64,000 nucleotides of DNA from Saccharopolyspora erythraea NRRL 2338 (GTDB lineage: Bacteria > Actinomycetota > Actinomycetes > Mycobacteriales > Pseudonocardiaceae). How positions within the stretch are numbered: the first letter of the stretch is position 1; each line of letters begins with the position of its first letter. Positions 3,241 through 36,839 of this stretch are shown piece by piece. A program made the translations under genes and the position numbers. A model generated the notes under the pieces. The model was not told the origin of the DNA and did no database searches. It saw nothing but the letters and a program-made list of their open reading frames with translations. The stretch lies in contig NC_009142.1 in assembly GCF_000062885.1 (NCBI RefSeq), positions 1,229,584 to 1,293,583 of the forward strand, written 5' to 3'.

Positions 3241-3608
3241 GGGGGTGAACGGTTTCGACTCCGTACGTTGATCCAAGGGAAGCGTGCCGGTGCAGGCGGA
3301 AGACCACCGAAAGCGTCGCCGCAACCAAATAAGCGCCGACAAGAGTCAGCGCGAGTTCGCCCTCGCCGCCTGAGCGAGGAGCGACTCTGTCGGACCGGGA
3401 ACGCCTCCGTCCCGGAATCCGGCATCATCTAGGAGGCTCTTACCGCCAGGTTCGGCCGCGGAACCTGGCGGGACACCAAACAGCGGCTGGGCTCGTCACA
3501 CCGGCTGGTTCGTGAGACCGGTGGAGCCAAGCAGAGGCACAGCGAACTGCGCACGGAGAAGTCTTGGTGAAGCGGCGGAGGACCCGGGTTCGATTCCCGG
3601 CACCTCCA
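3241..3608 (+). ncRNA. ssrA: tmRNA (SsrA)
   Basis: Transfer-messenger RNA. The 5' end GGGGGTG pairs with CACCTCC at the 3' end to make the alanine-type acceptor stem. The 3' T arm is GGGTTCGATTCCC. The internal reading frame begins at GCC 3335 and ends at TGA 3371-3373, giving tag ADKSQREFALAA, very close to mycobacterial ADSHQRDYALAA. The last genome-encoded base is the discriminator A at 3608, and CCA is not encoded. It lies downstream of smpB, its protein partner. A strong terminator follows immediately. Confidence 0.97.
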
Positions 3609-3609
3609 C

Positions 3610-4152
3610 TTGGAGCCTGTTCGGCGCCCTGGCGGGCGCCTTCCAGGCTCCTTGTTTTTTGTACGGGGGCCGAGTGCCCGTAGGCCCCTACGGTGCGGTG
3701 GGGGCGTTCGTCGGCTTCTCGGCTTTGGGGGCGTTGCCGGCCTGGTTCTGGACCAGCCCCATCTCTTGGCCGCCTTCGGTGGCCTTCGCCCTTTGGGGCC
3801 TGTTCGGCGCGCTGGCGGGTGCCTTTCAGGCTTCTTGTTTTGTACGGGGGCCGAGTGCCCGTAGGCCCCTACGGTGCGGTGGGGGCGTTCGTCGGCTTCT
3901 CGGCTTTGGGGGCGTTGCCGGCCTGGTTCTGGACCAGCCCCATCTCTTGGCCGCCTTCGGTGGCCTTCGCCCTTTGGGGCCTGTTCGGCGCGCTGGCGGG
4001 TGCCTTTCAGGCTTCTTGTTTTGTACGGGGGCCGAGTGCCCGTAGGCCCCTACGGTGCGGTGGGGGCGTTCGTCGGCTTCTCGGCTTTGGGGGCGTTGCC
4101 GGCCTGGTTCTGGACCAGCCCCATCTCTTGGTCACCTTCGGTGGCCTTCGCC
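3610..4152 (+). repeat. Three tandem ~181-bp repeats, each opening with a copy of the ssrA terminator
   Basis: The same sequence recurs with period 181 bp. The marker GTACGGGGGCCGAGTGCCCG starts at 3661, 3842 and 4023. Units begin near 3610, 3791 and 3972, and the last ends near 4152. Each unit starts with the terminator hairpin: perfect in unit 1 and G-U-rich in units 2 and 3 (GGGGCCTG with CAGGCTTC). Units 2 and 3 are nearly identical, so this is a recent tandem duplication. The open frames across it repeat the same peptide and are not considered genes. 4153-4346 holds nothing recognised. Confidence 0.9.
3612..3660 (+). terminator. Rho-independent terminator of ssrA
   Basis: GGAGCCTG (3612-3619) pairs with CAGGCTCC (3644-3651). 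An inner GGCGCC/GGCGCC pairing and a T run at 3655-3660 complete the hairpin. It starts four bases after the tmRNA 3' end. Degenerate copies of the same hairpin recur at about 3796-3840 and 3977-4021. Confidence 0.9.
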
Positions 4153-4346
4153 CCCCAAGCCCCGTCCCTGGGTCTTGCGGGGCCGGCTGGTCGCCTTGCT
4201 GGCTCCGCTGCGGCGGAGACAGGGCTCAGTCGGTATGAGCGCCCGGCGCCGGCAGTGCGTGGCCGACTGGGTGCGGCGGTGATCTCGGCGTGGATGCCGC
4301 GCCGGGAGCCCGCGGTGTCGGCCGGTGGGGCTGGTCGGCGGAGGCG

Positions 4347-11417: not shown

Positions 11418-12720
11418 GTGTCCAGCAGTTCGGCTGCGACGGATTCGAGGCAAGTGGAAGGCACCGGTACCACAGCGCTACCCCGGGAAATCTGGATCCT
11501 CGTCGTAGGAAGCTTCATCGTCGCGATCGGTATGGGCATCGTGGCGCCCGCGCTGCCCGCCTTCGCCGCCAGCTTCGACGTGGGCGTCACGGCTGCCTCG
11601 TTCGTCATCAGCGCGTTCGCGTTCATGCGGCTGGCCTTCGCGCCGGTCAGCGGCAAGCTGGTGTCGCGGTTCGGGGAACGCCCCCTCTACGTCTGGGGCA
11701 TCCTCATCGTGGCGGCGAGCACCTCCGCGTGCGCGTTCGCCGAGTCCTACTGGCAACTGCTGGTCTTCCGCGCCCTCGGCGGGACCGGATCGACGATGTT
11801 CACGGTCTCGGTCGTGGCGCTGCTGGTGCGCCTGGCGCCGCCGCACCTGCGCGGACGGGCGTCGGGCCTGTGGGCGACGAGCTTCCTGCTCGGCAACATC
11901 TCCGGGCCGATCATCGGCGGTTTCATGGTCGGCTTCTCCCTGCGGCTGCCGTTCCTGACCTACGGCGCGACGCTCTTCATCGCGGCGATGGTCGGATGGC
12001 TCATGCTGCGCAAGTCCACCCTCGCGGCACCCGACCGGGACAACACGGTCCCGCCCCTCACGGTCCGCCAGGCCTTGCACCACCGCGCCTACCAGGCGTC
12101 CCTGCTGTCGAACTTCAGCAACGGCTGGGCCGTGTACGGCGTGCGGGTCGCGCTCGTGCCGCTGTTCGTCGTCGAGGCACTGCGGTCGACGCAGGCCATG
12201 GCAGGCGTCGCCCTGTCGGTGTTCGCCGTGGGCAACGCGGCCGTGCTGATGATCTCGGGACGCATCTCCGACCAGCGCGGACGCAAACCCATGGTGTTCG
12301 GCGGGCTGACGATCTCGGCGCTGGGCAGCGCGGCGCTCGGGTTCAGCGACTCGGTGCCGTGGCTGCTGGCCTGCTCGCTGATCGCCGGCGTCGGAGCCGG
12401 ACTGCTCAACCCCGCCCAGAACGCGGCCGTTGCCGACGTGGTCGGCGCGAAGGGCAAGGGCGGACCGGTGCTGGCGACGTTCCAGATGGCCGCGGACGTG
12501 GGAGCGATCCCTGATCGCGGGCGTCATCGCGGACGCGGTGTCGTACCAGATGGCCTTCGCCGTCACCGGCCTGACCAGCGTGCTCGCGCTGCTGGTGTGG
12601 CTGCGCGCCCCCGAGACGAGGTTCGAGGCGAAGGCGTCGGCCCAGGAGAGCGCGGCGGCGGAGGCCGGCCACCTCGACGAAGGCCCTGAGGTGCCGAGCA
12701 CGACTCGGGTGGCGGACTGA
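11418..12720 (+). pseudogene. MFS transporter (DHA1-like), apparent frameshift near 12510
   Basis: 12-TM drug-efflux-type major facilitator. The N-terminal 11 or so segments are in the frame starting GTG 11418 (ALPREIWILVVGSFIVAIG at the start). After FQMAADVGAI the frame turns into arginine-rich nonsense. The expected last segment (SLIAGVIADAVSYQMAFAV through LLVWLRAPETRFEAKA) continues in the +1-shifted frame to the stop at 12720. The break is at about 12508-12515 (GCGATCCCTGATCGCG), where one to four bases seem missing. Either a genuine recent pseudogene or a sequencing error. Spectrum unknown. Confidence 0.8.
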
Positions 12721-14842: not shown

Positions 14843-16183
14843 TCACTCCAGGCCCGGCAGCGGGGCTACGCCGTGGCTCCAGCGCACCACGCGCCGGGCC
14901 TTGCCGTTGGTCGCGCGCGGGATGGTGCCGGGCTGGAGCACCCGGACCACGCAGCTGAGGCCGAGCCGTTCCGCGAGCGCGGCGGCGAGGTCGGTCTCCA
15001 GGACGGGGACGTCGCCGCCCTCGTCGTAGGGCTCCACCGCGACCAGCAGTTCCGGACGCGACGAGTCGCGGCGGTCCTCGATGACCATGTAGTGCGGCGC
15101 CACCCGCCGGTCCTCCAGCAGCACGGCCTCCACCTCGCTGGGGAAGACGTTGACGCCTCGGATGATCATCATGTCGTCGGCGCGGCCGATGACGCGGCTC
15201 ATCCGGCGAAGCGTCCGAGCCGAGCCCGGCACCGGACCGCAGAGCGCGGCGATGTCGCCGGTGCGGTAGCGCAGCAGCGGCAGACCGGTCTTGGTCAGTG
15301 TGGTGAACACCAGTTCGCCGGACTCGCCGTCGGGCACCGGCTCGCCGTCGACGCCGACGACCTCCGGGTAGAAGTGGTCCTCGGCGATGTTGAGCAACCC
15401 CTCGGAGTCCAGCGACTCGCACGCCACACCAGGGCCGATGATCTCGGTGAGCCCGTAGACGTTGAGCGCGCGCACCCCGAGCAGGCGTTCGATCTCCACC
15501 CGCATCTGCTCGGTCCACGGCTCCGCCCCGAACAGGCCCACCCGCAGCGAGAGCTGGTCGGAGGTGATGCCCGTGGAGCGGAACGACTCGCCGAGGTAGA
15601 TGCCGTAGGAGGGCGTGCAGCACAGCACGTCCGGACCGAGGTCGAGCATGAGCCGCAGCTGCATGTCGGTGCCGCCGCTGGACACCGGCAGCACCGCCGC
15701 GCCCAGCCGCATCACGCCGTGGTGGAACCCGAGCCCACCGGTGAACAGGCCGTAGCCGTAGGCGCAGTGCACCAGGCTCTGCCGGGTCACGCCCGCGCCG
15801 CCCAGCGCCCTGGCCATCACCTCCGACCACACCTCGACGTCGTGGGAGGTGTAGGGCACCAGCGTCTGGCGCCCGAGCGTGCCGGAGGTGCCGTGGACGC
15901 ACACGACGTCGGACGCCGACGCCGTCCGGAGCCCGAACGGGTAGGTGTCCCAGAAGTCCTGCTTGGTGACGTGCGGCAGGCGGTGCAGGTCGTCGAGACC
16001 GACGTCGGCACCGGCGCTCACCCCCGCTTCCCGCAGCCGTCCCGCCTGCAGCCCGTCGGCCGCCAGCAGCCGGTCGACGAGCCGCCGCAGGCGGCGTTCC
16101 TGCTGCTCACGACGGCGTTCCGGGTCGCAGCCCTCGGCCTCGGGAGCCACCAGCGGAGGCGACACGCGCTGTGCTGTGGTCAC
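14843..16183 (-). CDS. Phenylacetate-CoA-ligase-like AMP-dependent acyl-CoA ligase
   Basis: 446-aa AMP-forming ligase of the PaaK family. The phosphate-binding loop is VHGTSGTLGRQT, followed by PSYGIYLGES, YGLTEIIGPGVA and the hinge RYRTGDIA. The C-terminal lid ends IPRATNGKARRV with the conserved catalytic lysine. The acid substrate (phenylacetate or another aryl/alkyl acid) cannot be told from sequence; no paa genes are adjacent. GTG at 16183 is used as start. It converges on the NADH dehydrogenase gene with 6 bp between stops. Confidence 0.85.
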   Translation of the reverse strand: MTTAQRVSPPLVAPEAEGCDPERRREQQERRLRRLVDRLLAADGLQAGRLREAGVSAGADVGLDDLHRLPHVTKQDFWDTYPFGLRTASASDVVCVHGTSGTLGRQTLVPYTSHDVEVWSEVMARALGGAGVTRQSLVHCAYGYGLFTGGLGFHHGVMRLGAAVLPVSSGGTDMQLRLMLDLGPDVLCCTPSYGIYLGESFRSTGITSDQLSLRVGLFGAEPWTEQMRVEIERLLGVRALNVYGLTEIIGPGVACESLDSEGLLNIAEDHFYPEVVGVDGEPVPDGESGELVFTTLTKTGLPLLRYRTGDIAALCGPVPGSARTLRRMSRVIGRADDMMIIRGVNVFPSEVEAVLLEDRRVAPHYMVIEDRRDSSRPELLVAVEPYDEGGDVPVLETDLAAALAERLGLSCVVRVLQPGTIPRATNGKARRVVRWSHGVAPLPGLE

Positions 16184-16331
16184 GACCCACGGTGTAGCAG
16201 AGCGGCCTGCACGCTGGGTAGATCCAACCAGGGGGACCCCCCTGCGAGGGGGCTTCGCGGGCTGTTGTACTGTATGCAGGCACGAGATGAACGGGGCCGG
16301 AAGGAACCGGGAGGCTCGGGAGACAGAACAA

Positions 16332-16404
16332 GGGGCTGTGGCGCAGCTGGTAGCGCACTTGACTGGCAGTCAAGGGGTCACGGGTTCGAATCCCGTCAGC
16401 TCCA
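16332..16404 (+). tRNA. tRNA-Ala (GGC)
   Basis: 73-nt cloverleaf. GGGGCTG pairs with CAGCTCC as acceptor stem (one G-U), D arm GCGC...GCGC, anticodon arm CTTGA-CTGGCAG-TCAAG with GGC at positions 34-36, T arm ACGGG-TTCGAAT-CCCGT, discriminator A at 16404. CCA is not encoded. Its 3' 43 bases lie in the 44-bp sequence repeated at the far end of the integrated element, so the present 3' half came from the element and restores an intact tRNA. Confidence 0.96.
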
Positions 16405-16405
16405 C
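16362..16405 (+). other. attL: 44-bp attachment repeat within tRNA-Ala 3' end
   Basis: Exact 44-bp match to 36787-36830. It covers the tRNA anticodon loop to one base past the discriminator. The flanking bases differ on both sides (g/t before, c/t after), which fixes the repeat boundaries. The adjoining integrase gene marks this as the junction restored by the element. Confidence 0.93.
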
Positions 16406-16411
16406 CCAAGG

Positions 16412-16486: not shown

Positions 16487-17689
16487 CTAGACGGCTCGGA
16501 GCTGTGGACCATCTGTGGACCGCCGAAGGTGTTTCGAGAGCAGCGCGCCGGCGTCGCTGACCGACTGCCGGTCCGGATGGAGGTACCTCTGCGTCGTGGC
16601 CAGTGACGCGTGCCCGGCAATCTTGCGCAGGTGATGAACGGGCACGCCGGCATCTGCCATCCACGTCAGGCCGGTGTGGCGTAGGTCGTGGCGCCTCAGG
16701 TGCTCGTAGCCGAGCCGGGTTGCGACCTCATCCCATGAGGTCGCGTCACGGAGGACCGCGGTCGTGATCCGCCCGCCACGGGGTCCGGTGAACAGCCGGG
16801 CGTCCAGCGTGCCGTCGGTCTGGGCGATCCGCCGCTGCACGAGTTCACGAACCTCATCGATCAGCGGCACGGTGCGGGCCCGCTTGCCCTTCGTTCCTTT
16901 GTCGACCAGGCCACCTGGCGCGGTGGTGGTCTGACGCCGGACATTCCATGTCCACTCGGTGGTGTTGATGTCTCTGACTCGGCATCCGGAGACTTCGCCA
17001 ATGCGGGCAGCGGTGCAGGCCGCGAAGATCACCACGTCGCCCCAGCCTTCGTACTCGGTAGCGGAAGCCGCTACGAGTGCATCCGAGAGCTTCGTGAGGG
17101 TGGCCCAGTCGGGCAGCGCGAGCGAACGCGGATCGTCGAGCTCGTCTTCGGCGCGAGCGAGTTCTCGTTGCCATCCGGTCACCCTTGCCGGGTTCCGATC
17201 GATGATGCCGTCCCGCAGGGCTTGCTCCATGACGCGCACAAGCGGGGCGATGCTGTTCTTGATCGTCGATTCGCTGTATTCGTCGGCGATCCAGGCATGC
17301 ACGGCTCGGTCTACGGCTCCATTGGTGATCATGCGGACTGGGATGTGACCGAGGGTCGGAACAACGCGCTTACGCCATCCCGCCAGGTACGGATCGCGGG
17401 TCTTGTCTTCCACACCCCGGAGGGCGAGCGCCATGTTGGCGTCGCCGTACTCGGCAAGACTCATGTTGGCGGCGATCGGGTCGATGCCTCCGGAAGCTGC
17501 TCGCTTCATCAGGTCGATCCACGCCGCAGCCTGCTCTTCGTCCTTGTGCGACTCGGACAGAGAACGACGCTTGCTCGTCTGCGGGTCCGTCCAGCGCACG
17601 CGAGCGCGGTACGGCGCTGGTCGGTTCGGCATGTATTCGACGTCCGACGAGACCTTGACGCCGATCGGCGGTCGCTTGGCGCTGTTCAC
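16487..17689 (-). CDS. int: Tyrosine recombinase, AICE integrase
   Basis: 400-aa site-specific recombinase. Catalytic residues in the order of the family: Arg about 229 (TAARIGEVSG), His334-Arg337 (HDLRHTG), His360 (KIAGHASL) and nucleophile Tyr369 (TQRYLHP). The N-terminal half contains the SAM-like core-binding domain (DYSE..STIKNSIAPLVRVME region). GTG at 17689 with upstream AAAGGAA is preferred over the longer frame from 17749, whose first 20 residues merely translate the GTGACA repeats. It adjoins attL, so it should act on tRNA-Ala. The last codons overlap arm-type repeats. Confidence 0.95.
   Translation of the reverse strand: MNSAKRPPIGVKVSSDVEYMPNRPAPYRARVRWTDPQTSKRRSLSESHKDEEQAAAWIDLMKRAASGGIDPIAANMSLAEYGDANMALALRGVEDKTRDPYLAGWRKRVVPTLGHIPVRMITNGAVDRAVHAWIADEYSESTIKNSIAPLVRVMEQALRDGIIDRNPARVTGWQRELARAEDELDDPRSLALPDWATLTKLSDALVAASATEYEGWGDVVIFAACTAARIGEVSGCRVRDINTTEWTWNVRRQTTTAPGGLVDKGTKGKRARTVPLIDEVRELVQRRIAQTDGTLDARLFTGPRGGRITTAVLRDATSWDEVATRLGYEHLRRHDLRHTGLTWMADAGVPVHHLRKIAGHASLATTQRYLHPDRQSVSDAGALLSKHLRRSTDGPQLRAV
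16503..16521 (+). other. Putative integrase arm-binding repeats, left end
   Basis: GTGGACC-ATCT-GTGGACC at 16504-16521, about 100 bp inside attL and within the integrase C-terminal codons. The same spacing and orientation occurs about 100 bp inside attR (36675-36692). Arm-type integrase sites are expected at such positions; assignment is by placement and repetition. Confidence 0.55.
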
Positions 17690-17718
17690 TGGGCGGGTTC
17701 CTTTCGTGGTGACACGGT

Positions 17719-17795
17719 GACAGTGCGGTGACGGAGGCGTCACCGTCATTCGTGCAGGTCAAGGCTGGTTTGGTGACACGGTGACAGCGGTGACA
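17719..17795 (-). repeat. GTGACA-repeat module, copy 1 (rep 3' end / int leader)
   Basis: Read on the minus strand it begins TGTCACCGCTGTCACCGTGT, then TTGACC, GAA and GGTGAC at the same spacing as two other copies at 32094-32170 and 33502-33577. It spans the last codons of the RepA-like gene and the leader of int. Direct TGTCACC units plus opposite GGTGAC units suggest a protein-binding array: replication origin, transfer locus or operator. Confidence 0.7.
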
Positions 17796-18795
17796 CTTCT
17801 GTCGTGGGGTCGGTGTCACCGTCGATCGGGAAGTACTTCCCGCTGCTGGTGGCATTGAGCTGGCCGTCGCCTGCCATGCGTCGACAGGCCTGCTTCACCG
17901 ACGACAGCTCGATTCCCGTGGCCCGCGCGATAGCAGTCGGCCCGTCGCCTGGGCTTTCGCGGACGTGGCGGAGGATGGTGGCGCGGGTGTCGTGGAGGGT
18001 GTGGTCGGTGGCGGGGCCCTCGAGGAGCTGCCAGGCGCCGCTATTGGGGTGGAAGGCCAAGGCGTATTCGGCTTCGTCGATGTCGCGGCCGGTGACCTGT
18101 AGGACGCCGTCGGCTTTGTTGCGGCCTCTGCGGAGCACGAGGGTGGCGTCAGCGGCGCCGGCGATGCCGTTGGAACCGGAGACCGTTTCGAGGAAGTCCT
18201 CGGAGCCCATCTTGCGGACGTGGTGCACGAGCACGAACGCGACGCCGTAGCGGTCGGCAAGTTGTTTGGCGCGGCCGATGGCGGCGTAGTCGGCGTCGTA
18301 GGCCGACATCCCCGCGGGCGGTGTGCCGCGCATCTTGGCGAACACGTCGAGCACGACCATGCGAGCGTCCGGGTTCTGATCCAGCCACGCCGCGATTGCC
18401 TCGTCTCCACCCGCGGGCAGGGTCGGACAACTTGTGGCCAGGCTGAGGTTGCGCGGGGCGGGCTCGTCTCCGAGGAGCTTGCCCATGCGGGTCTTCAACC
18501 GCCGCGGGGTGTCTTCCAGGGCGAGGTAGAGCACCGGTCCGGGTTCGACATCGACCATGTCGAACGCGCGGCCGCCGGAGGCGACGGCGAGGGCGAGTCC
18601 GAGGGACATCCAGGACTTACCGACCTTGGGTGGTCCAGCCAGGACGTTGACGCCTTCGGCGAGGATGCCGGGCACTGCCCACCGAGGGTCGGGGAAGTCG
18701 GTGGCCATGAGGGCATCGGCGGTCCAGGCGTCGGCGAGTGCTTCGGCCGGGTGGCGGCGCAGGGGCCGGACGTTGTCGGGCTCGGTGGTGCTCAC
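17746..18795 (-). CDS. RepA-like replicative ATPase (AAA_25 family)
   Basis: 349-aa RecA-fold ATPase resembling RepA helicases of plasmids and the helicase-like partner of primase-polymerases. Walker A is GPPKVGKSW (about residues 54-62), Walker B MVVLDVFAKM, followed by FVLVHHVRKMGSED. The C-terminus has a helix-turn-helix-like segment (GPTAIARATGIELSSVKQACRR). GTG at 18795 follows GAGGTGA. The longer upstream frame is the antisense shadow of the methyltransferase. Probably unwinds the element for replication together with the prim-pol and SSB encoded upstream in the same run. Confidence 0.85.
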   Translation of the reverse strand: MSTTEPDNVRPLRRHPAEALADAWTADALMATDFPDPRWAVPGILAEGVNVLAGPPKVGKSWMSLGLALAVASGGRAFDMVDVEPGPVLYLALEDTPRRLKTRMGKLLGDEPAPRNLSLATSCPTLPAGGDEAIAAWLDQNPDARMVVLDVFAKMRGTPPAGMSAYDADYAAIGRAKQLADRYGVAFVLVHHVRKMGSEDFLETVSGSNGIAGAADATLVLRRGRNKADGVLQVTGRDIDEAEYALAFHPNSGAWQLLEGPATDHTLHDTRATILRHVRESPGDGPTAIARATGIELSSVKQACRRMAGDGQLNATSSGKYFPIDGDTDPTTEVSPLSPCHQTSLDLHE

Positions 18796-22778: not shown

Positions 22779-25103
22779 TCAGTCGCTCGCGTCGGCGGGG
22801 GATCGCCGCGCCACTTGTTCACGCACGGTGAGGGGGTCGACGTGGTAGAGGTTCTTGGTGGACGGGACCTTGATGCCCTGGTCGGCCAGCTCTGCCACGA
22901 GCTGCGGGCCGGTCATGGGCTTGCCGCCGCGGTGGTAGGTGCGCCCGTACTGGGCGACCAGGGCCTTGGCGGCCTCAGCCGCGGAGACCTTCTCCTCGCC
23001 CAGCACGTGGTCGAGGTCGGTGAGCAGGTCCCGCGGCTCCTGCTCGACCGCGGCAATCGCGGTGATGTTGGCGGCCTGCCGCAGCTGCATGGCGCGTTCG
23101 ACGATGGCTTTGTGCTGGCCACGCGGCACGTAGTAGCAGCGCATGAGGCCGGGCTTGGCCAAAAAGCCGCGGCTGGTCATCGCCGTGCCCACGTCACCGG
23201 GGCCTTCCTCGGTGGCCGGCTCCAGCCCGACGGCGGAGATACCGCGCCGGTAGGCGCTGGTCCCGAGGATCGCGTCGTTGGACTGCTGGTCACCGATGGC
23301 GAAGCAGGCCGTGTTCGACATGACCGCCATGAGCTTGCGGGGCAGGGAGTCGGTGGAGGGCTCGGGGGTGAGGAACATCAGGGTGATGCCGTACTTGCGG
23401 GAGGCGTTCATCAGCAGGATCGCCAACCGCTGGGCCTCTTTGCCGTGTTCTTCGTGCAGGAACAGGGCCTGGCACTCGTCGATCACCATGATCCGGGGCC
23501 GCAGCCGCGCGTCCTTTTCCGCCAGGCGACGGGAGACCTTTTCCGCGTCGGGGTCGCCATTGCGGGTGTGCTCTGCCAGCGCCTTGCCGCGGATGTCCAG
23601 TTCGGCGTAGAGCTCGCGCAGGGTGTTCATGCACGCCTCGACGGTCTCCTCGCCGGCGCCGGTGACCAGCGACCGCAGGCGGGGACGCATCATCTCGTAG
23701 TCGGCGTTTTGGGCCAGCACGAACACGTCGATGTCGACCAGCGGATCGAGCATGGCGCCCAGGCAGGCGGTGATGGCCAGGGTGGACTTGCCCGAGCCCA
23801 TCATTCCGGCGTTGGCCCAGTTCTTGCCGGAGAAGTGGCCGGTCACGGTGTCGCCGCGCATGTTGACCGCGACCGGGACACCGGCGAAGTAGTCGGTGAC
23901 AGCGGTGGACAGCTCGGCCAGCAGCGGCCAGTCCTCGACCGGGTCGGTGAGCACGCCGGGGTCGGCGATCCACAGGTCGAGCACGCCGGGCTTGTCCTTG
24001 GGTTCGGTGGCCCACACCTCGACCGCCAGACGCCCCAGGTTGTGTGCCAGGACGTTCTTCTTGCGGGCGATCTCGGAGACCGGGACCTGCTGCGGCAGCC
24101 GGATCTGGCAGCGCCAGCCCTTGCCGTCCTTGCCCAGCCCCGTCTCCCACACCCGCGCGGGGTGCGTCGGGGTGCCCCAACCGGCCTTGAACGCCTTGTC
24201 CAGGCCGGAAATGCCCAGGTGACGCAGCGCTCCGAGGATGGAGCTCTCGTCGATGTCGTCGGCGGCATCCTGCTCGTCGTAGGTGGCGGAGGTGACCCAG
24301 TCGGGCAGGTTGTGGGACTGCTTGCCGGTCTTGTGCAGCGCGGCGATCCCACCGACGAGTCCGGCTCCGGTCAGCCACGGGAACAGCGCCATCGCCACCG
24401 ACCACAGGCCGGTCACGGTGTCGGCCACGCCGGTGGCGGTGCCGGCCACGGCGGCCCAGTATCCCTGGGTCCACACGCTCTCCCAGCTCGCGCCGCCGGC
24501 GTTGCCGGGGAAGAACTCCCCGATCTCCGCACCCGCCCCGTAGACCGCGACACCGACGGTGACCAGCAGGAACAGCGCGGACAGGGTAGCCAGGGTGTAG
24601 CCGGCGGCCTTGGTGGCCTTGCCCGCGACGGTGAGCATCTCGCCGATGCGGGACCAGCGGGCGTTGGCCGACTCGCGGCGCTGCTGCTCGAGCACCGCCA
24701 GTTCGCCGTAGTTGCGGTCGGCGCGGGCCTGGCGGATCGCCGCGGTCAGATCGCGATGCAGCAGCCGCGCCCACGCCCGGCTGTTGACGTCGCGGGCCCC
24801 GGCGTAGACGAACATCAGGTGCCGCCGGGCCCCTGCCGAGGCGTCCCACCCGGTGCTGATCGCGCCCGGGGTGGCCTTGATGCCGCGGACCGCGAGGGCA
24901 CCGCCGCGCTGGGCGACCGCCGTGATGCCGGTTCGGGCCGGGGGCTGCTGGTCGTCGCGGACGTCCAGCTCGCGGTCGGCGTCCTGCTCGGTGGTGGTGT
25001 CGGCGGGCAACGCCAGCGTCTGGCCCGCCTGCTGGTGCTGGGGGTGGGGGAACTGGATCAGCTTCGCCCACGTGTCGGTGGTGCCGTGCGGCTGCTCGGA
25101 CAT
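22779..25103 (-). CDS. FtsK/SpoIIIE-type DNA translocase (TraB-like conjugation protein)
   Basis: 774-aa membrane-bound DNA pump. Membrane segments lie at about 167-192 (ATLSALFLLVTVGVAVYGAG) and 230-256. The motor domain has Walker A GMMGSGKST (433-441) and Walker B RIMVIDECQALF (about 537-548). The C-terminal ~120 residues end in a helical region (GPQLVAELADQGIKVPSTKN) that may be the winged-helix DNA reader. In pSAM2-like elements one such hexameric protein moves double-stranded DNA between hyphae. ATG at 25103 with GAAGGGTGA is the real start; the longer frame is shadow. Confidence 0.93.
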   Translation of the reverse strand: MSEQPHGTTDTWAKLIQFPHPQHQQAGQTLALPADTTTEQDADRELDVRDDQQPPARTGITAVAQRGGALAVRGIKATPGAISTGWDASAGARRHLMFVYAGARDVNSRAWARLLHRDLTAAIRQARADRNYGELAVLEQQRRESANARWSRIGEMLTVAGKATKAAGYTLATLSALFLLVTVGVAVYGAGAEIGEFFPGNAGGASWESVWTQGYWAAVAGTATGVADTVTGLWSVAMALFPWLTGAGLVGGIAALHKTGKQSHNLPDWVTSATYDEQDAADDIDESSILGALRHLGISGLDKAFKAGWGTPTHPARVWETGLGKDGKGWRCQIRLPQQVPVSEIARKKNVLAHNLGRLAVEVWATEPKDKPGVLDLWIADPGVLTDPVEDWPLLAELSTAVTDYFAGVPVAVNMRGDTVTGHFSGKNWANAGMMGSGKSTLAITACLGAMLDPLVDIDVFVLAQNADYEMMRPRLRSLVTGAGEETVEACMNTLRELYAELDIRGKALAEHTRNGDPDAEKVSRRLAEKDARLRPRIMVIDECQALFLHEEHGKEAQRLAILLMNASRKYGITLMFLTPEPSTDSLPRKLMAVMSNTACFAIGDQQSNDAILGTSAYRRGISAVGLEPATEEGPGDVGTAMTSRGFLAKPGLMRCYYVPRGQHKAIVERAMQLRQAANITAIAAVEQEPRDLLTDLDHVLGEEKVSAAEAAKALVAQYGRTYHRGGKPMTGPQLVAELADQGIKVPSTKNLYHVDPLTVREQVARRSPADASD

Positions 25104-27553: not shown

Positions 27554-27654
27554 GAGTTTGTGTCCTTTCCGGGCGAGCAGGTCAGGTGAAGGTGATGTCG
27601 TCGTTGCGGTACTCGGAGCGCGAGGGTGATCGCTCTGGCGTCTATCGCGGCTGG

Positions 27655-27915
27655 TTAGAGCTGGGCGGCGTAGGTGTCGATCGAGTCCCTGCCGGAGATC
27701 ACCAACTCTTGGGCCTGTTCGGCCTGGCTGAACGCCTGGTGGAACGCGCTGATGGCGTGCTGGGCCGACTCCCGGGCGCTGCTGGCCACGGTGGTGTCCA
27801 GTGCCCGCTGGACCTCGTTGATGGTCAGCGCGGCCTGCTTGAGCGCGTAGAGCGCTTCGCTGGCCTGGGTGGTGGCGGCGGACAGGTTCGCGCGGATCTC
27901 TTCGATACCGGCCAT
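27655..27915 (-). CDS. Small helical protein, 86 aa, first of a pair
   Basis: 86 aa, predicted as two long amphipathic helices (EIRANLSAATTQASEALYAL, then SAFHQAFSQAEQAQELVIS) ending YAAQL. Size, all-helical build and pairing with the next gene recall WXG100 proteins, but there is no WXG turn or YxxxD/E signal. ATG at 27915. It is 45 bp from its sister gene, which is also exactly 86 aa and ends in AL. Confidence 0.75.
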   Translation of the reverse strand: MAGIEEIRANLSAATTQASEALYALKQAALTINEVQRALDTTVASSARESAQHAISAFHQAFSQAEQAQELVISGRDSIDTYAAQL

Positions 27916-27960
27916 GACGGGTCTTCCTCCTGGAAAGGGTTGGTGTGACGGGAAAACGGG

Positions 27961-28221
27961 TCAGAGGGCCTGCTGGTATTCGCTGACCTTGTCGGTGGCG
28001 TCGTGGAGGACGCCGACGATCTCGGAGAGCTGGGTCTTGGCCAGGGCGAAGTTGGCCAGGGCCTGCTGCACCAGCTCGTTTTCCGAGCCCTGGGTGACGG
28101 TGGCGAGCATGTTGGCCAGGGCTTCGATGTCGTACTGGGACTCGACGAGGGTGCCCATCAAGCCGCCGGCCTGGATGTTGGTCTCCGACAGGACGCGGGA
28201 GACGTCTTCAACGTGGGGCAT
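27961..28221 (-). CDS. Small helical protein, 86 aa, second of a pair
   Basis: 86 aa, helical (LVESQYDIEALANMLATVTQ, then ALANFALAKTQLSEIVGVL), ending SEYQQAL. Same length and layout as the neighbouring 86-aa protein, though residues differ. The two may form a heterodimer. ATG at 28221. It lies in the transfer run between the zinc-binding protein and its sister. Not recognised otherwise. Confidence 0.75.
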   Translation of the reverse strand: MPHVEDVSRVLSETNIQAGGLMGTLVESQYDIEALANMLATVTQGSENELVQQALANFALAKTQLSEIVGVLHDATDKVSEYQQAL

Positions 28222-28273
28222 GACGCTCGTTTCTCCTGAAGCGAAGGGGTTGGTGGTTCGGTGCGGCTCGTGG

Positions 28274-28699
28274 TCAGGCCGCGGCGGTGTCGGGCAGGTA
28301 GCAGTCCCAGCACTGGCCGGCCGAGGTCGGCAGGTAGTAGGGCTTGACCTGCTGGCCGGGCGGGCAGGTCGGGCACGTGCGCCGCGCGGTCAGTGCCCGC
28401 TCGATCGCCGCGCGCTGGGAGGGGGTGGCGGTGCGCTTGGGCTTGGCCAGCTCGATGCGGAACAGCTCGGCGAGTTCCTCGCGCCGGTAGGGCTGGCGGT
28501 GGCGGAATCGCAGCAGCGCCACCGGATCGGCACCGCCGGGGCGCAGGCTCATCTCGCGGAGCTGCCGGCGGGTGGCCAGTCCGAGCCGGGCCGGGACCGA
28601 GCGCCAGGCGAAGACCGGCAGCCCGTCGAGGTGGCCGTGGCAGAACTCCCACGTGCCGTCCCACAGCGTCGTCTTGACGATCGGCCACTGCCGCGCCAT
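28274..28699 (-). CDS. RRQRL-motif-type zinc-binding protein
   Basis: 141 aa. The middle holds GLATRRQLREMSLRPGG, the arginine-rich RRQ-L motif of a family common in actinomycete elements. The C-terminus has CPTCPPGQ and CWDC, four cysteines placed to bind zinc. ATG at 28699 overlaps the end of the upstream gene by one base (stop/start sharing). DNA or RNA binding is likely but unproven; its constant link to AICE transfer genes suggests a regulatory or transfer role. Confidence 0.8.
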   Translation of the reverse strand: MARQWPIVKTTLWDGTWEFCHGHLDGLPVFAWRSVPARLGLATRRQLREMSLRPGGADPVALLRFRHRQPYRREELAELFRIELAKPKRTATPSQRAAIERALTARRTCPTCPPGQQVKPYYLPTSAGQCWDCYLPDTAAA

Positions 28700-29175
28700 C
28701 ACGCGCCCCCGAGTACCGCGGCCAGCGCCAGCGCGACCAGCAGCACCACCAGTCCCGTGACCAGTAGCCGCACCGCCCAGGCGATGCGCCGGTACTTGCG
28801 CCGGGCGATCTGGGAGACCACCACCATCGTCACGGCCACCCGCTCCGGCGAGGACTCCGTGTTGGAGTGCAGCTCCACCAGCTCGGCAGGCTTGGAGCGG
28901 GCCGCGTGCAGGAACGAGCCCGGCTCTCCGGCATCCAGGTAGGGGAAGACCACCGCCAGTAGCACCAGCACGCTCGCCGCGATCGGCACCGCCGCCGCCC
29001 ACAACGCGACCTCAGACGCCGTCGGCAGCGCGGTGCGGGTCAGCGACACCACCCCGGCGAAGGCTGCACCGACCAGCGTCAACAGCGTGGTGGCCTTGGT
29101 GTCGGCCCGTCGCAACTCATCCCGAACCTGACTCACCGCGGCGTTCAAGCTCTCCGTCGTCTCCGCCGACATCAC
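28699..29175 (-). CDS. Pycsar-effector-type (PycTM, DUF5706-like) membrane protein
   Basis: 158 aa. Helical start with the family pattern RDELRRADTKATTLLTLVGA, a first hairpin of membrane helices (to about residue 78, ending VVFPYLDAG), a soluble loop (HAARSKPAELVELHSN), then SQIARRKYRRIAWAVRLLVTG leading into the last membrane helix. This matches the PycTM fold: membrane effectors gated by cyclic CMP/UMP in Pycsar defence. No pyrimidine cyclase is encoded nearby. The start overlaps the excisionase stop (ATGA), so it belongs to the element's main operon. Confidence 0.8.
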   Translation of the reverse strand: MMSAETTESLNAAVSQVRDELRRADTKATTLLTLVGAAFAGVVSLTRTALPTASEVALWAAAVPIAASVLVLLAVVFPYLDAGEPGSFLHAARSKPAELVELHSNTESSPERVAVTMVVVSQIARRKYRRIAWAVRLLVTGLVVLLVALALAAVLGGA

Positions 29176-32093: not shown

Positions 32094-32170
32094 GTGTCAC
32101 CGCTGTCACCATGTCACCGAACGCGGGGTGACCTGTGCGAACGATGGTGACAGTACGGTGACACCCCTAT
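32094..32170 (+). repeat. GTGACA-repeat module, copy 2 (upstream of the Shedu 3' end)
   Basis: TGTCACCGCTGTCACCATGT... then GAACGATGGTGACAGTACGG. Aligns without gaps to copy 3 (33502-33577), roughly 80% identical over 77 bp, and to copy 1 on the minus strand. Copies 2 and 3, both plus-oriented, flank the Shedu gene. Confidence 0.8.
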
Positions 32171-32205: not shown

Positions 32206-33255
32206 TTATTCAGAACCCTCTCGGGATGACTGATCCTTTTCCAGAATGTCTAGTCTGCGCTTGGCTCTGGCAGCCATTTGATCGTACGTAATTACCTGGA
32301 TGCTGTGAAGTCTGGCATTTAGTCCACGGAGCCCCTTGAACCAATTCAGATCCTTTCCCTGTGATCTTCCTATGACGATCGTTGCGCGAGGGTAGTAAGC
32401 CACTATGTTCTCGTAGTCATCCATTCCCTTCTTTGCGCTTTCGTGAAGCTTGTCAAGGTAGCGATGGCACTGCCCGATTGCTTTTGACGAGTCGCTGGAC
32501 CAGTACCACGATTTATGGGAACTGTCCCAGATTATTGGCTCCATTCTTGGCGTCTTGAGTTCGACGATGTCTCTTAGTCCATCCAGCGAATTTTCGAGCA
32601 TCATGTCGACGCTCTCTCTGTTTCCTATGGACCGTACTTCGTCTAGTGACCTGTACTCATCGCCTAGCGCCCAGGCGTGCCGCTCCATCCACCGTTGAAA
32701 ATCTGACTCTGGGTGGTCGGCGCTTGCATCAAGCATTCGATTGAGATCTTCAAGCGCCTGGCGCAGGTCTGCCGATCGAGCCGAAAGCTGAATCGACCGT
32801 ATTAGATGCTCGCCGTCGGGGTCGGCTGCAAGTCGCTTCAGTGAACCGTCGTCTTGTGAAATCTTGCGTATAAGGTTTCCCAGCGTGTGTACGTCGATTG
32901 ATCGTTCGCTGTCGCCATCCTCGTCGGCGCGAAAAACGAAATAGCGACCATTTTCGGGCTGGCTGGAAATGGCTGCGATTTTCTGTAGTTCTTCGCGAAG
33001 CTGCAGAAATTCATCATTATTCAAGGTGAAGTCAACGGGGTATCCTACCTGAAGCCCGCTGTCGTTCTTTTTCCAGTAGCGAACCTTTAGGGATACTTCA
33101 ATTCGTGATTCGCTTCGCGTTATATACCTTGGAATTAACTCGAAGTGTGTTCTTGAGCCCGCGCGCAATGTAATCGGATCGCTATATGAGAGACTTTCCG
33201 CTGCAGCTTGGCGCCGGTCGAAGATATCATCGCCCACGCTGACCTCCTGCTTCAT
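32206..33255 (-). CDS. sduA: Shedu anti-phage defence nuclease (SduA, DUF4263)
   Basis: 349 aa. The C-terminal DUF4263 nuclease domain is clear: FQRWMERHAWALGDEY, then VDMMLENSLDG (Asp217), DIVELKTPR (Glu232, Lys234), AIGQCHRYLDKL (Gln262), ATIVIGRSQG, LNARLHSIQVITYDQM. These form a PD-(D/E)xK centre; Shedu proteins nick foreign DNA as single-gene defence systems. The first ~170 residues are the variable sensor part. GC is visibly lower than in the element backbone, and repeat copies flank the gene, which suggests separate acquisition. ATG 33255 is used. Confidence 0.92.
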   Translation of the reverse strand: MKQEVSVGDDIFDRRQAAAESLSYSDPITLRAGSRTHFELIPRYITRSESRIEVSLKVRYWKKNDSGLQVGYPVDFTLNNDEFLQLREELQKIAAISSQPENGRYFVFRADEDGDSERSIDVHTLGNLIRKISQDDGSLKRLAADPDGEHLIRSIQLSARSADLRQALEDLNRMLDASADHPESDFQRWMERHAWALGDEYRSLDEVRSIGNRESVDMMLENSLDGLRDIVELKTPRMEPIIWDSSHKSWYWSSDSSKAIGQCHRYLDKLHESAKKGMDDYENIVAYYPRATIVIGRSQGKDLNWFKGLRGLNARLHSIQVITYDQMAARAKRRLDILEKDQSSREGSE

Positions 33256-33619
33256 GAAGAATCAACAACCGTGCATCGTGGCTGCCCGAAGAACCGTTAC
33301 GCACACGATGAAGGCTGGACAGGTACGGGCGCAGCGGTTGCAGTGACCGGCATGTCAGCGGCGGTGGGGGTACGTGCCTGAGCCTGTCCTGGTGTCGGAA
33401 GGCTGCGTCGTTCTGGTCGACGCAGCCCGCGCTCGCGGCGGGACAGAACAAGATCTTCGACAGTGCTCGTGAAGTCGGTGACAGAAGTTCTTGTCGCGGA
33501 CTGTCACCGCTGTCACCGTGTCACCGAACCTGGTTTGACCGGCGAGAACGCTGGTGACAGTACGGTGGCAGCCCTAGCTTGCGGTGTCACCGGACAGCTG
33601 AAGACGGCTGTAACAGTGG
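33256..33619. other. Noncoding region upstream of Shedu
   Basis: 364 bp. Contains the presumed Shedu promoter (minus strand), then GTGACA module copy 3 (33502-33577) and the left inverted end of the 325-bp repeat segment (33606-33622). No gene is supported. Confidence 0.5.
33502..33577 (+). repeat. GTGACA-repeat module, copy 3 (downstream boundary of the Shedu cassette)
   Basis: TGTCACCGCTGTCACCGTGT, then TTGACC and GAACGCTGGTGACAGTACGG. Same layout and length as copy 2. Its first 24 bases match copy 1 nearly perfectly on the opposite strand. Confidence 0.8.
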
Positions 33620-33622
33620 TTA
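33606..33622. repeat. 17-bp inverted end, left
   Basis: GGCTGTAACAGTGGTTA is the exact reverse complement of 36636-36652. The pair brackets a 3.05-kb segment that starts and ends with the 325-bp direct repeats. Within copy 1 itself, AACAGTGGTTA (33612-33622) is also inverted at 33934-33944. Confidence 0.75.
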
Positions 33623-33944
33623 ATCGCGCTCGCGTCGTTGGTTCACTTTGGCCTGTACTGCGGGGTGCTCCGGGATAGTCGAATCTCCACTTCGGTTTCG
33701 GACCTTGGCGTCGGTCGCGGACATGCGACACGCCTCGCTCCTATGCTGCCCGCGTCCCATGAGGGCGACGTACGTGCGAGCGCGAGTGCGGGGCAGCATG
33801 CGGAACTAGCCAGGGAGGCTTGTTCGCAAAGGTGTTCTCAAGGCCCTCTCAGATCGCCACAGACGACCGCTTGGCCCCACCCGCGGGTTCTGCCTAGGGA
33901 GCGATCGTTCATGAGCTAAGCCACGCCCTCGACTAACCACTGTT
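33620..33944 (+). repeat. 325-bp direct repeat, copy 1
   Basis: Starts TTAATCGCGCTCGCG and ends CTCGACTAACCACTGTT. Matches 36323-36647 over the whole 325 bp with a single difference seen (CGCAAAGG here, CGCAGAGG there). Open frames inside have no credible start or composition. Contains one member of a hairpin motif family (33836-33878). Confidence 0.92.
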
Positions 33945-34330
33945 GCTGGAACAGTGGGGTCTGCTTGGCGCCGGCGGGAGCCCTCTAGGCGCAAGGTGGC
34001 TGCTCAGGATGCGTGTGAGGCTCTAGCGCCCCCTCTAGACCTAGAGGGGGCTCCTTCTAGGTCTAGAGCGTCGGAATGTCACCGCTGTCCCCTCGGCCTG
34101 GTCAAGGCTGGAGCAGTGGGGGGATTGGCTGTCCTCACGTCGTCGACCACGGCCCGTCAGGCTCTGCCCTGGGCCTAAGGCGCCTACAGCCGGTGGGCGC
34201 AGGAAAGCGGATCTCAGAGCGCGCTGAGATCGCCGTAGACGCCCTGAACGCGAGTGTCGGTACTTGGCGCACTCGTCGACAGGCGTCATGTTCGACTCAT
34301 GACCGCGCCGCAAGCGCACAGCCCCGTCGT
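33945..34330. other. Noncoding region with hairpins and 3' module X of the adjacent membrane gene
   Basis: 386 bp. CTCTAGACCTAGA (34033-34045) is inverted at 34056-34068, and the same bases can pair alternatively as CCCCCTCTAG/CTAGAGGGGG. Module X (about 34084-34179) shares a 20-base exact core, CCTGGTCAAGGCTGGAGCAG (34097-34116), with module Y at 35042-35137. A third motif at 34211-34230 (ATCTCAG-AGCGCG-CTGAGAT) is a perfect hairpin. No gene supported. Confidence 0.6.
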
Positions 34331-34933
34331 CTACCAGATGATCACGCTTTCCCGGTCCCGCTCGATGTATTGCTGATCGACCCAAGGATTGTGTGCTTCA
34401 CCGGGATCACTGTCAGGAAGACGTGACAGCAGAACGACGCGAAGTTCCATCCGGGCAATCTGTTGCCAACCTTCTGGGAGTTTGACTGGAATTTCGAGTG
34501 GCTCGTTCCTGGCTCGGTTGTATTCGTATAGTGAAACCTCATATACGGGCGCGCCGTCCTGACTCGTCTCCGTTGCTGGCTTGAATATCTCACCTCGGTA
34601 CCGGAAATCGACGATTACGCCGGGCGGCCCCTCTTTGTATACTGCTTTGATGACGAATGTTTCTTCAGTTGTCTCAACTGAAAGAGACCACTTTGGTGCC
34701 GCATTGCGATGACTCGTGTCTTCTGTTAGTTCAACGGTCCGGAGCGCGGCAGCCGCGGATTTCTCGGCCGCCTGGGCGGCTTGCTCTGCAACAGGAAGGG
34801 CGCGTTCGGCGGATGCTGCGGATCGCTCTGCTGCGTTTGCCGACTTCCGAGACGCCCACCAGCTCAGGCTGCCTACTCCCAACGCGGCCCCAGCGATGAT
34901 GTTGGTGATAGCGGCAGCTATTCCTTCGTCCAT
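34331..34933 (-). CDS. Membrane-anchored coiled-coil protein of unknown function, 200 aa
   Basis: N-terminal membrane helix (AAAITNIIAGAALGVGSLSWW), then an Ala/Glu/Ser heptad region (about residues 30-70, SAASAERALPVAEQAAQAAE), then a beta-rich C-terminal domain (WSLSVETTEETFVIKAVYKE, MELRVVLLSRLPDSDPG). ATG 34933 with GGAAG upstream is preferred to 35002. Low GC and codon use differ from the element backbone, like Shedu and the next gene. Not recognised; architecture and location fit a defence or exclusion protein. Confidence 0.75.
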   Translation of the reverse strand: MDEGIAAAITNIIAGAALGVGSLSWWASRKSANAAERSAASAERALPVAEQAAQAAEKSAAAALRTVELTEDTSHRNAAPKWSLSVETTEETFVIKAVYKEGPPGVIVDFRYRGEIFKPATETSQDGAPVYEVSLYEYNRARNEPLEIPVKLPEGWQQIARMELRVVLLSRLPDSDPGEAHNPWVDQQYIERDRESVIIW

Positions 34934-35041
34934 TAAGAAGTGCCTTCCATTAGGTGGTAGGTTCACTGCTACATAGGCGCAAGCGTTGGACGCGTTACCC
35001 ATCGCCGTCCCGCCAGCGGGGAGGCGCCGTCAAGGTTTCCT

Positions 35042-35137
35042 GCTGCTCCCCTGACCTGGTCAAGGCTGGAGCAGGAGTGGATTGGCGGCCCTGAAGTCGT
35101 CGCCCACGGTCCGGCGGGCACGGTCCGTGGGCAAGGC
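35042..35137. repeat. Module Y, homologue of module X, on the 3' side of the second membrane gene
   Basis: Aligns with 34084-34179 at roughly three-quarters identity, including a 20-base exact core (35055-35074) and shared ATTGGC and GTCGTCG blocks. Each copy lies downstream of a minus-strand membrane/coiled-coil gene. Could be a structured RNA end, a recombination site or a decayed coding remnant. Confidence 0.65.
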
Positions 35138-35213
35138 GTCGGCCGCCCGTGGGAAGCTGGAAATCGTCGATCCGGCACCTGACGGTGGCTTCCACTTCAA
35201 TGCGTGTCCTGGG

Positions 35214-35906
35214 TCAGTTGTCAACCGACTTCGTGCTCTCGCCTGATCCTGCCAAGAGGGACAGGTAATAGGTTATGTCCGCCTCGACTTCGGTCGCAGT
35301 GCCCCATATTTTGTTTAGCAATTCCTCCTTCTTTTCCCTATCTATCACCTCGCCCTTGGTGATGTCATCAAGCAAACCGGTCGCAAAGTGAGAAATGGCT
35401 GCCATTATGTTGTGGAGTTTGTGCACCGGAGGCGGCGCGTCCTTCGGTGAATGCATTCCTGCACTCAGTAGGATGTGGTCAAATTCGGATCTTTTGGTTA
35501 CGACCGCCTCTATAAGTTCGGACACCTGTTTGCGTGTCGCGGAGTAGCTTAAATTATGGTCGGCTGCCAAAAGAAATAGTCTTTTTAGGTTGATGAGAAT
35601 CTCTCTCGACTTGAACAAGATGTCAGATAGTGATTCGCGATGTTTGGCAATCCGGATCTCGTTTCGGTCGGCCTCTGCGGATGCTAGCTGACCCTCCATT
35701 AAGCTGACCTGCTTCTCGGCCGCATCGGCTTGCCGTTTGGCATCGGCTGCCTGGTTCATTGCTGCAACTGCTTGCTCGCTAGCCGACCTGGCTTGCCTGC
35801 TCGCGATTCGTGCCTGATAGGAAGCGATACCCGCGGCTGCGAGTGCAACTACTACTGCGACCCACGCTGCCACGTCGCCCAGCACATTCTCGTCCACGCG
35901 GATCAC
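35214..35906 (-). CDS. Membrane-anchored coiled-coil protein of unknown function, 230 aa
   Basis: N-terminal membrane helix (DVAAWVAVVVALAAAGIASY), then a long coiled coil (about residues 30-85; ASRQARSASEQAVAAMNQAA, EKQVSLMEGQLASAEADR). A helical C-terminal domain follows (FKSREILINLKRLFLLAADH, ISHFATGLLDDITKGEVI). Same N-terminal plan as the neighbour at 34331-34933 but an unrelated C-terminal part. AT-rich for this genome. ATG 35906. Function unknown. Confidence 0.75.
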   Translation of the reverse strand: MIRVDENVLGDVAAWVAVVVALAAAGIASYQARIASRQARSASEQAVAAMNQAADAKRQADAAEKQVSLMEGQLASAEADRNEIRIAKHRESLSDILFKSREILINLKRLFLLAADHNLSYSATRKQVSELIEAVVTKRSEFDHILLSAGMHSPKDAPPPVHKLHNIMAAISHFATGLLDDITKGEVIDREKKEELLNKIWGTATEVEADITYYLSLLAGSGESTKSVDN

Positions 35907-36230
35907 CTTACTGAAGCGCGAGCCATTTGAGATACGGCTCTTCGTTGGTGATTCCGCCTCTGCGAGACACGGAACCGTACGTGCCGCTTGGTCGTACCTG
36001 TGGTTTCCAGGCTTCGGAGAATCGCCCTCAAGGGGCCTGACGTCGCCGTAGATGCACTGTCGAGCACTGCCGGGTGTTTCGGGTGGGCCGCAGCTGTAGG
36101 GCTGCCGGGAACGGGGGCCGCCTGGGGCTCAGTTCGCCCCCCGTGCGGACTGCCCCCCACTGTTCCAGCTGTCCCATCTGACCTGCGAAAAGTGAATCCT
36201 TGCACGGCTGTGAACCAATCGATCCGAGAA
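35907..36230. other. Noncoding region before the tRNA-Phe relic
   Basis: 324 bp. Should hold the promoter of the 230-aa protein gene. A motif near 36011-36062 belongs to the same hairpin family as 34203-34250 and 33836-33878. Otherwise nothing is recognised; small open frames here cross the tRNA relic and are not genes. Confidence 0.45.
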
Positions 36231-36272
36231 CTGAAAAGCGGAAGGTCGGCGGTTCGACCCCGCCCCTGGCCA
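36231..36272 (+). other. tRNA-Phe 3' half (attachment-site relic)
   Basis: CTGAAAA (anticodon loop with GAA), GCGG closing stem, variable AAGGTC, T arm GGCGG-TTCGACC-CCGCC, acceptor strand CTGGCC and discriminator A: the complete 3' half of an actinobacterial tRNA-Phe. No 5' half precedes it, so it is not functional. tRNA-Phe is a known target of actinomycete elements (pSE211). This marks the att end of another element inside the tRNA-Ala AICE. Confidence 0.85.
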
Positions 36273-36287
36273 CCTCGAAGAGCTGCG

Positions 36288-36324
36288 AAAACGGTCCTCG
36301 TCGATCTCGGCGAGGGCCGTTTTT
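36288..36324 (+). terminator. Rho-independent terminator following the tRNA-Phe relic
   Basis: AAAACGGTCCTCG pairs with CGAGGGCCGTTTT (one G-U) around a 10-base loop, ending in a T run. It lies 15 bp after the tRNA-Phe 3' half, as in an intact tRNA gene. Copy 2 of the 325-bp repeat starts in its T run. Confidence 0.85.
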
Positions 36325-36647
36325 AATCGCGCTCGCGTCGTTGGTTCACTTTGGCCTGTACTGCGGGGTGCTCCGGGATAGTCGAATCTCCACTTCGGTT
36401 TCGGACCTTGGCGTCGGTCGCGGACATGCGACACGCCTCGCTCCTATGCTGCCCGCGTCCCATGAGGGCGACGTACGTGCGAGCGCGAGTGCGGGGCAGC
36501 ATGCGGAACTAGCCAGGGAGGCTTGTTCGCAGAGGTGTTCTCAAGGCCCTCTCAGATCGCCACAGACGACCGCTTGGCCCCACCCGCGGGTTCTGCCTAG
36601 GGAGCGATCGTTCATGAGCTAAGCCACGCCCTCGACTAACCACTGTT
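36323..36647 (+). repeat. 325-bp direct repeat, copy 2
   Basis: Second copy of 33620-33944, one mismatch seen. It begins in the T run of the terminator at 36288-36324, so the left junction is different from that of copy 1. The right end runs into the 17-bp inverted end (36636-36652). Confidence 0.92.
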
Positions 36648-36652
36648 ACAGC
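36636..36652. repeat. 17-bp inverted end, right
   Basis: TAACCACTGTTACAGCC, exact reverse complement of 33606-33622. Five bases extend past the end shared by the two 325-bp copies, so the match is not explained by the direct repeat alone. Confidence 0.75.
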
Positions 36653-36666
36653 CATCTGTCGCCACC

Positions 36667-36692
36667 GTGGACTTGTGGACCATCCGTGGACC
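36667..36692 (+). other. Putative integrase arm-binding repeats, right end
   Basis: GTGGACT, then GTGGACC-ATCC-GTGGACC (36675-36692), about 100 bp inside attR. Same units, spacing and orientation as at 16504-16521. Confidence 0.55.
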
Positions 36693-36786
36693 ACGACATT
36701 GGCGACGGGTGCGAAACGCGCACGTCGGGGCTGCGTCAGCGAATGCCTGGGGGCACGGTTTTCCCAGCTCACGGGATGTTCAACGT

Positions 36787-36830
36787 ACTGGCAGTCAAGG
36801 GGTCACGGGTTCGAATCCCGTCAGCTCCAC
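36787..36830 (+). other. attR: 44-bp attachment repeat (displaced tRNA-Ala 3' end)
   Basis: Exact copy of 16362-16405. It is the original chromosomal 3' part of tRNA-Ala, now cut off from its 5' half. The tRNA's native terminator follows at 36840. Confidence 0.93.
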
Positions 36831-36839
36831 TCGAAAGAT

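Follow-up and report, generated by a model that had tools for sequence, protein, structure and literature searches.

What is the 3-kb, repeat-flanked segment that lies beside a Shedu gene in the chromosome of Saccharopolyspora erythraea NRRL 2338? Within the 64,000-nt stretch analysed here (NC_009142.1, positions 1,229,584 to 1,293,583; referred to below as the window, whose numbering is used unless the chromosome is named), two direct copies of a 325-bp sequence and a pair of inverted ends enclose two genes, here called A and B. An earlier note on this DNA had proposed either a non-autonomous transposon-like unit or a duplication formed when cargo was inserted, with A and B as an undescribed defence or exclusion pair. 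The best explanation, and in our judgement a probable one, is that the segment is a recombination scar rather than a functional unit, which would have formed when recombination between AICE ends duplicated the repeat, R.

The segment is located just inside the attR of an integrated element, AICE1 (Table 1), a position that had not been recognized before. AICE1 is 20.4 kb long (16362-36830) and seated in a tRNA-Ala(GGC) gene, and its att cores form an exact 44-bp direct repeat (16362-16405 and 36787-36830). In a genus mate (G001), the tRNA-Ala locus is uninterrupted, with the equivalent of 14871-16405 directly adjoining that of 36787 onward; this contiguous empty site, together with the 44-bp cores, identifies 16362-36830 as one integrated element. 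Of 386 family genomes, 70 encode relatives of its tyrosine integrase at E<=1e-40, with a top identity of 79%. AICE1 furthermore encodes a Prim-Pol replication protein (PF09250, 8.6e-42) and an AAA_25 protein (Pfam). The reading frame at 22779..25103 is probably traB, judging from its size, Walker-type sequence and position; in Pfam, its product has weak ATPase matches, none of which is above the curated cut-off (Zot, 0.0015). The cargo includes Shedu, whose protein has an ELK motif at residue 232 that, by reading, would fit a PD-(D/E)XK nuclease. Close to attR, the two GTGGACCA repeats are likely integrase arm sites. An Rfam tmRNA match at 36727-36832 was discarded, being under the gathering score and overlapping the tRNA-Ala core.

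Table 1. Features of AICE1 and of the repeat-flanked segment, in window coordinates; z values, based on 60-100 mononucleotide shuffles, rank the matches rather than giving exact probabilities.
Feature	Position	Strand	Remarks
tRNA-Ala(GGC), AICE1 target	16332..16406	+	ARAGORN; att core copy 1 = 16362-16405
AICE1 tyrosine integrase	16487..17749	-	PF00589 1.3e-21; adjoins att core copy 1
Probable TraB/FtsK-like transfer ATPase of AICE1	22779..25103	-	probable start at 25103, from the reading frame
Shedu (SduA-like) nuclease gene, AICE1 cargo	32206..33255	-	SduA C-terminal domain, PF14082 5.4e-13; PADLOC SduA 3.7e-93
R copy 1	33606..33944		left inverted arm (33606-33622) whole; right arm broken off after CCACTGTT
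S2, left half of AICE right-end spacer	33945..34250		begins GCTGGAACAGTGGGG; 73% to AICE3 right end, z 46; AICE4 z 16
Gene A	34331..34933	-	200 aa (probable); TM, Ala-rich coil and probable beta domain; start M24 of listed ORF 34331-35002
S3	35028..35172		repeats 34069-34213 in diverged form; local alignment score 130 (highest shuffle, 44); 78% over 125 bp
Gene B	35214..35906	-	230 aa; TM, coil and four-helix bundle; single-sequence model pLDDT 85
S4, right half of AICE right-end spacer	36015..36169		ends CCCCACTGTTCCAGC; AICE3 z 21, AICE4 z 8
tRNA-Phe 3'-end attachment core	36231..36274	+	44 bp identical to chromosomal tRNA-Phe; non-tRNA sequence before core; attR or attP type
tRNA-Phe downstream sequence	36275..36322	+	terminator-like inverted repeat (AAACGGTCCTCG..CGAGGGCCGTTT)
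R copy 2	36323..36653		without left arm (join at TTAATCG); right inverted arm (36637-36653) whole
attR-proximal region of AICE1	36670..36786		two GTGGACCA repeats; retained at right ends of related AICEs, eight genomes
attR core of AICE1	36787..36830	+	44 bp, identical to tRNA-Ala 3' end

The direct repeat occupies 33620-33944 and 36323-36647, with a period of 2703 bp, and carries the single mismatch reported earlier (33829 A, 36532 G); since its copies differ at only 1 of 325 bases, the duplication is recent. The 17-bp inverted repeat GGCTGTAACAGTGGTTA is likewise perfect, as had been noted, with the correction that its right arm is one base further on (36637-36653 instead of 36636-36652); with 92% identity, the arms lengthen to 25 nt (33602-33626 and 36633-36657). 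Both the direct and the inverted repeat have lengths far beyond chance expectation. We designate as R the 325-bp unit plus its ends, 345 bp in all, with inverted ends of 20-21 bp. In DNA searches, R was found neither elsewhere in its own genome nor across 390 family genomes; short matches in two of these (G359 and G091) lie in DNA that reads as ordinary coding sequence and were taken as chance. An exact-pattern search of genome_contigs (84,980 species) returned no copy of the R arms, and a 16-mer of the R arm has 24 single matches in viral contigs. The predicted RNA fold of R is no more stable than those of shuffled sequences. Ten related AICEs with a similar integrase were fetched and the right ends of eight of them aligned: the conserved right end of these tRNA-Ala elements stops at about 36670, with nothing R-like to the left of this point, so that R appears as an extra piece. 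R is linked to AICE right ends by the end motif that they have in common and by a block of 15 bp; its overall alignment to them is weak and not convincing (R against AICE4, z 4.2, level with the best of 100 shuffles).

The DNA between the two R copies (33945-36322) can be related to other AICEs of the same genome. It matches positions 284770-285179 of the chromosome, which form the right end of AICE3; this element has att repeats of 56 bp in tRNA-Ser(GGA), and AICE4 has att repeats of 46 bp in tRNA-Thr(TGT). The integrases of AICE3 and AICE4 are related (45% and 60%, respectively) to that of AICE2, a tRNA-Phe AICE located at about 7.82-7.84 Mb of the same chromosome with an integrase of its own. 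In AICE3, the counterparts of 33945-34250 and 36015-36169 form a single uninterrupted right-end spacer, and the same is true of AICE4; genes A and B thus split this spacer, being placed between S2 and S4. The spacer is followed by a 44-bp tRNA-Phe 3' end, absent from the earlier note, and by a hairpin. Taken together, the spacer halves, the core and the hairpin lead us to read the insert as the right end of a second AICE of the tRNA-Phe type ("AICE5"), whose left part would be missing here. Of note, a hairpin within S2 (CTCTAGACCTAGAGG..TCTAGGTCTAGAG, 34034-34068) recurs in AICE3 and AICE4, and its region matches positions 11882-11966 of the Saccharopolyspora plasmid NZ_CP134056.1 as well as another genome (G362). 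Near the right end of AICE4 is a NUDIX-like gene (L092 8615-9157); a NUDIX protein of pSAM2, Pif, functions in exclusion (PMC3218068).

Inspection of the insert additionally disclosed a second perfect inverted pair that the earlier note had missed, the 15-bp GCTGGAACAGTGGGG at 33945-33959 and 36155-36169. Short, perfect inverted ends of this kind (the 17-bp and 15-bp pairs), with no transposase between them, are also found in MITEs and other non-autonomous TIR transposons, and R (345 bp, inverted ends of 20-21 bp) and/or 33945-36169 (15-bp ends) could accordingly be nested non-autonomous elements mobilized by a transposase acting in trans. In keeping with such a reading, the homology that AICE3, AICE4 and the insert share has its left edge at the motif GCTGKAACAGTGG. 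The genome contains 8 exact copies of this motif, which form four inverted pairs: the ends of R, the ends of the insert spacer, one pair in AICE3 and one in AICE4. In the latter two elements, the right member is found just inside attR and the left member 5.7 kb away, ahead of the replication gene. When one mismatch is allowed, GCTGKAACAGTGG is no commoner than its control (23 vs 65), so that only the exact copies are meaningful; over the 390 family genomes, it is near the control level among the matches listed. The motif pattern, the limits of the aligned segments and the control sets were fixed after the sequence had been seen.

Several observations nonetheless speak against transposition. 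The homology of the insert to AICE3 and AICE4 is unbroken at its right inverted end (36169) and extends toward the tRNA-Phe core, so that this end does not mark the limit of a mobile unit. No target-site duplication was recognized by eye in the flanks of R and, in agreement with the earlier note, no transposase family was found inside the segment or among the proteins searched. Solo copies of the 325-bp unit would be expected of a transposon; within the sensitivity of the searches, the unit is found only here in 390 family genomes and genome_contigs has no exact arms. The transposon-like unit that had been proposed therefore does not stand up, and we consider nested elements quite unlikely.

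The preferred recombination model starts from what is observed, namely the repeats, the boundaries of the AICEs, the insert's homology to AICE ends and the tRNA-Phe core. AICE1, in tRNA-Ala, would first have carried a single R just inside its attR, and the donor would have been an incoming molecule bearing R and the AICE5 end, i.e., the spacer with A and B, the tRNA-Phe core and the terminator-like hairpin. A single homologous R x R crossover of the Campbell type, which would be the simplest route, should then have produced an R-insert-R arrangement with near-identical R copies, an outcome in line with the earlier idea of a duplication formed when cargo was inserted. Conversely, RecA recombination between the R copies should remove the insert as a 2703-bp circle. 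We infer the crossover, the presence of R on the donor and the order of these events. AICE1 and AICE2 have in common about 1 kb at 88-91% identity (27653-28710 of the window and 7828266-7829533 of the chromosome, with small paralogous frames), the longer surrounding alignments being at about 58%, and this makes exchange between AICEs plausible in this lineage. The searches yielded no donor in which R adjoins an AICE5 end. Also counting against the model, two copies of the inverted motif lie precisely at the left junction of the insert; a simple R x R crossover would account for this junction only if it was already present in the donor.

Near-identical R copies in the same orientation might also have arisen locally, through in-place tandem duplication of 2703 bp or unequal crossing-over of two AICE1 copies; the outer arms would then have been lost, and no circular donor would have been involved. 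The cargo zone does indeed hold other, diverged direct repeats: a 75-bp repeat (85%), which resembles DNA at the integrase start, flanks Shedu on both sides, and about 145 bp recur around gene A, which is flanked by direct repeats as S3 is a second copy of 34069-34213. These repeats could stem from older rounds of the same process, or could be functional sites. Duplication alone, however, leaves a tRNA-Phe core inside a tRNA-Ala AICE unexplained, and we regard a purely local event as unlikely. Two further repeat families were seen in the window. GGTGACA repeats, with an iteron-like look, cluster at the integrase start (17708-17820) and on either side of Shedu (32095-32163 and 33477-33591), and three tandem 181-bp repeats, two of them identical and the third at 83%, are located at 3657-4199, just downstream of the tmRNA gene (3241-3609).

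The foreign core could also be the product of site-specific accretion, in which a tRNA-Phe AICE would have entered a Phe-like att site in AICE1 and subsequently shed the genes for integrase and transfer, so that a CIME-like remnant stayed behind. The embedded core is indeed a full 44 bp identical to tRNA-Phe, a tRNA-Phe AICE with its integrase is present in the same genome, and for elements of this sort both accretion and CIMEs have been described (PMC9513070, PMC5704250). A CIME, however, is a remnant between att sites of one target, so that two tRNA-Phe cores should be present after integration, whereas the segment has one; in addition, accretion does not explain the duplication of R. We thus hold it to be very improbable. 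A related proposal is that AICE1 carries a usable internal tRNA-Phe att site, at which tRNA-Phe AICEs integrate or recombine, with the A-B region leaving as a 2.7-kb circle; this we consider quite improbable too.

Returning to the two genes brought in, under the recombination model, with the AICE5 end, A and B each encode one likely TM helix and an Ala-rich coil, which agrees with their earlier description as membrane/coiled-coil genes, and each lies between diverged spacer repeats. Two full-length relatives (37% and 35%) were aligned with the product of gene A to set its start, which is thus probably at 34933. No Pfam, NCBIfam, PADLOC or PHROG family was found for its product, nor any match in genome_contigs, and its single-sequence structure is poor (pLDDT 54). 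The modelled structure of the gene B product matches generic four-helix or helical bundles, and its PADLOC matches, to LmuB, JetC and LeoBC, are weak (E 0.00047 to 0.016) and cover the TM/coil and adjoining helices. Searches of plasmids with both proteins gave no match. The two products are alike only in their N-terminal TM and Ala-rich coil, and no B-like gene was seen beside the full-length relatives of A in the two genomes concerned (G364 and G365). The defence or exclusion pair proposed earlier hence stays no more than a candidate.

Proteins with A/B-like N-termini are encoded close to a TraB-like gene in three other genomes. Three such TM/coil genes start 249 bp past the end of the TraB-like gene in G232, the nearer one ends 39 bp from it in G244, and the gap, to 9684, is about 2.7 kb in G079. 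The G232 genes (L190 7702-10259) are in tandem, directly after an FtsK/SpoIIIE-family gene. A common origin of A and B with these traB-adjacent proteins was considered but not retained: the likeness appears to be that of TM and coil only and did not survive a C-terminal shuffle control, in which shuffled A and B scored as well as or above the real proteins. Only the G365 relative of A beat its shuffled controls (50.3 vs 36.3). Two of the traB-adjacent relatives, used as plasmid queries, gave no match. A and B are best regarded as cargo of an AICE, with membrane-anchored coiled-coil proteins as their products. A role at the membrane, which might lie in transfer or in exclusion, is a tentative idea to which we attach limited credence. 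Their case argues against presuming a defence role from a position beside Shedu.

How does this locus compare with known elements? AICE1 resembles AICEs of the pSAM2, pSE211 and pMEA300 class in having a tyrosine integrase by a tRNA gene, an att core from the tRNA 3' end, a Prim-Pol replication gene and cargo, and its empty site is seen in the genus mate. It differs from them in its composite right end, which includes the end and the tRNA-Phe core of another AICE family. Accretion and CIMEs of integrative elements (PMC9513070, PMC5704250), as well as internal att sites in Streptomyces islands (PMC8369830), have already been described, and AICE1 is similarly a two-element composite with an internal attachment site. 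In the described accretions, however, one target site is common to both elements, whereas AICE1 has an Ala core outside, a Phe core inside and a 325-bp direct repeat flanking the join. A small literature search brought up no account of an AICE that harbours the end of an AICE with a different target, which suggests that, while composite AICEs are known, an end of one target family within an AICE of another is apparently new.

As a caution, the locus illustrates how inverted ends and direct repeats near attR can mimic a transposon. If the recombination reading is right, the segment would document that two AICE families differing in target gene swapped an end together with its cargo, and such an exchange would leave a foreign attachment core inside an AICE. 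Should the internal tRNA-Phe site in fact be usable, it would constitute a route by which cargo moves between AICE families of different target genes.
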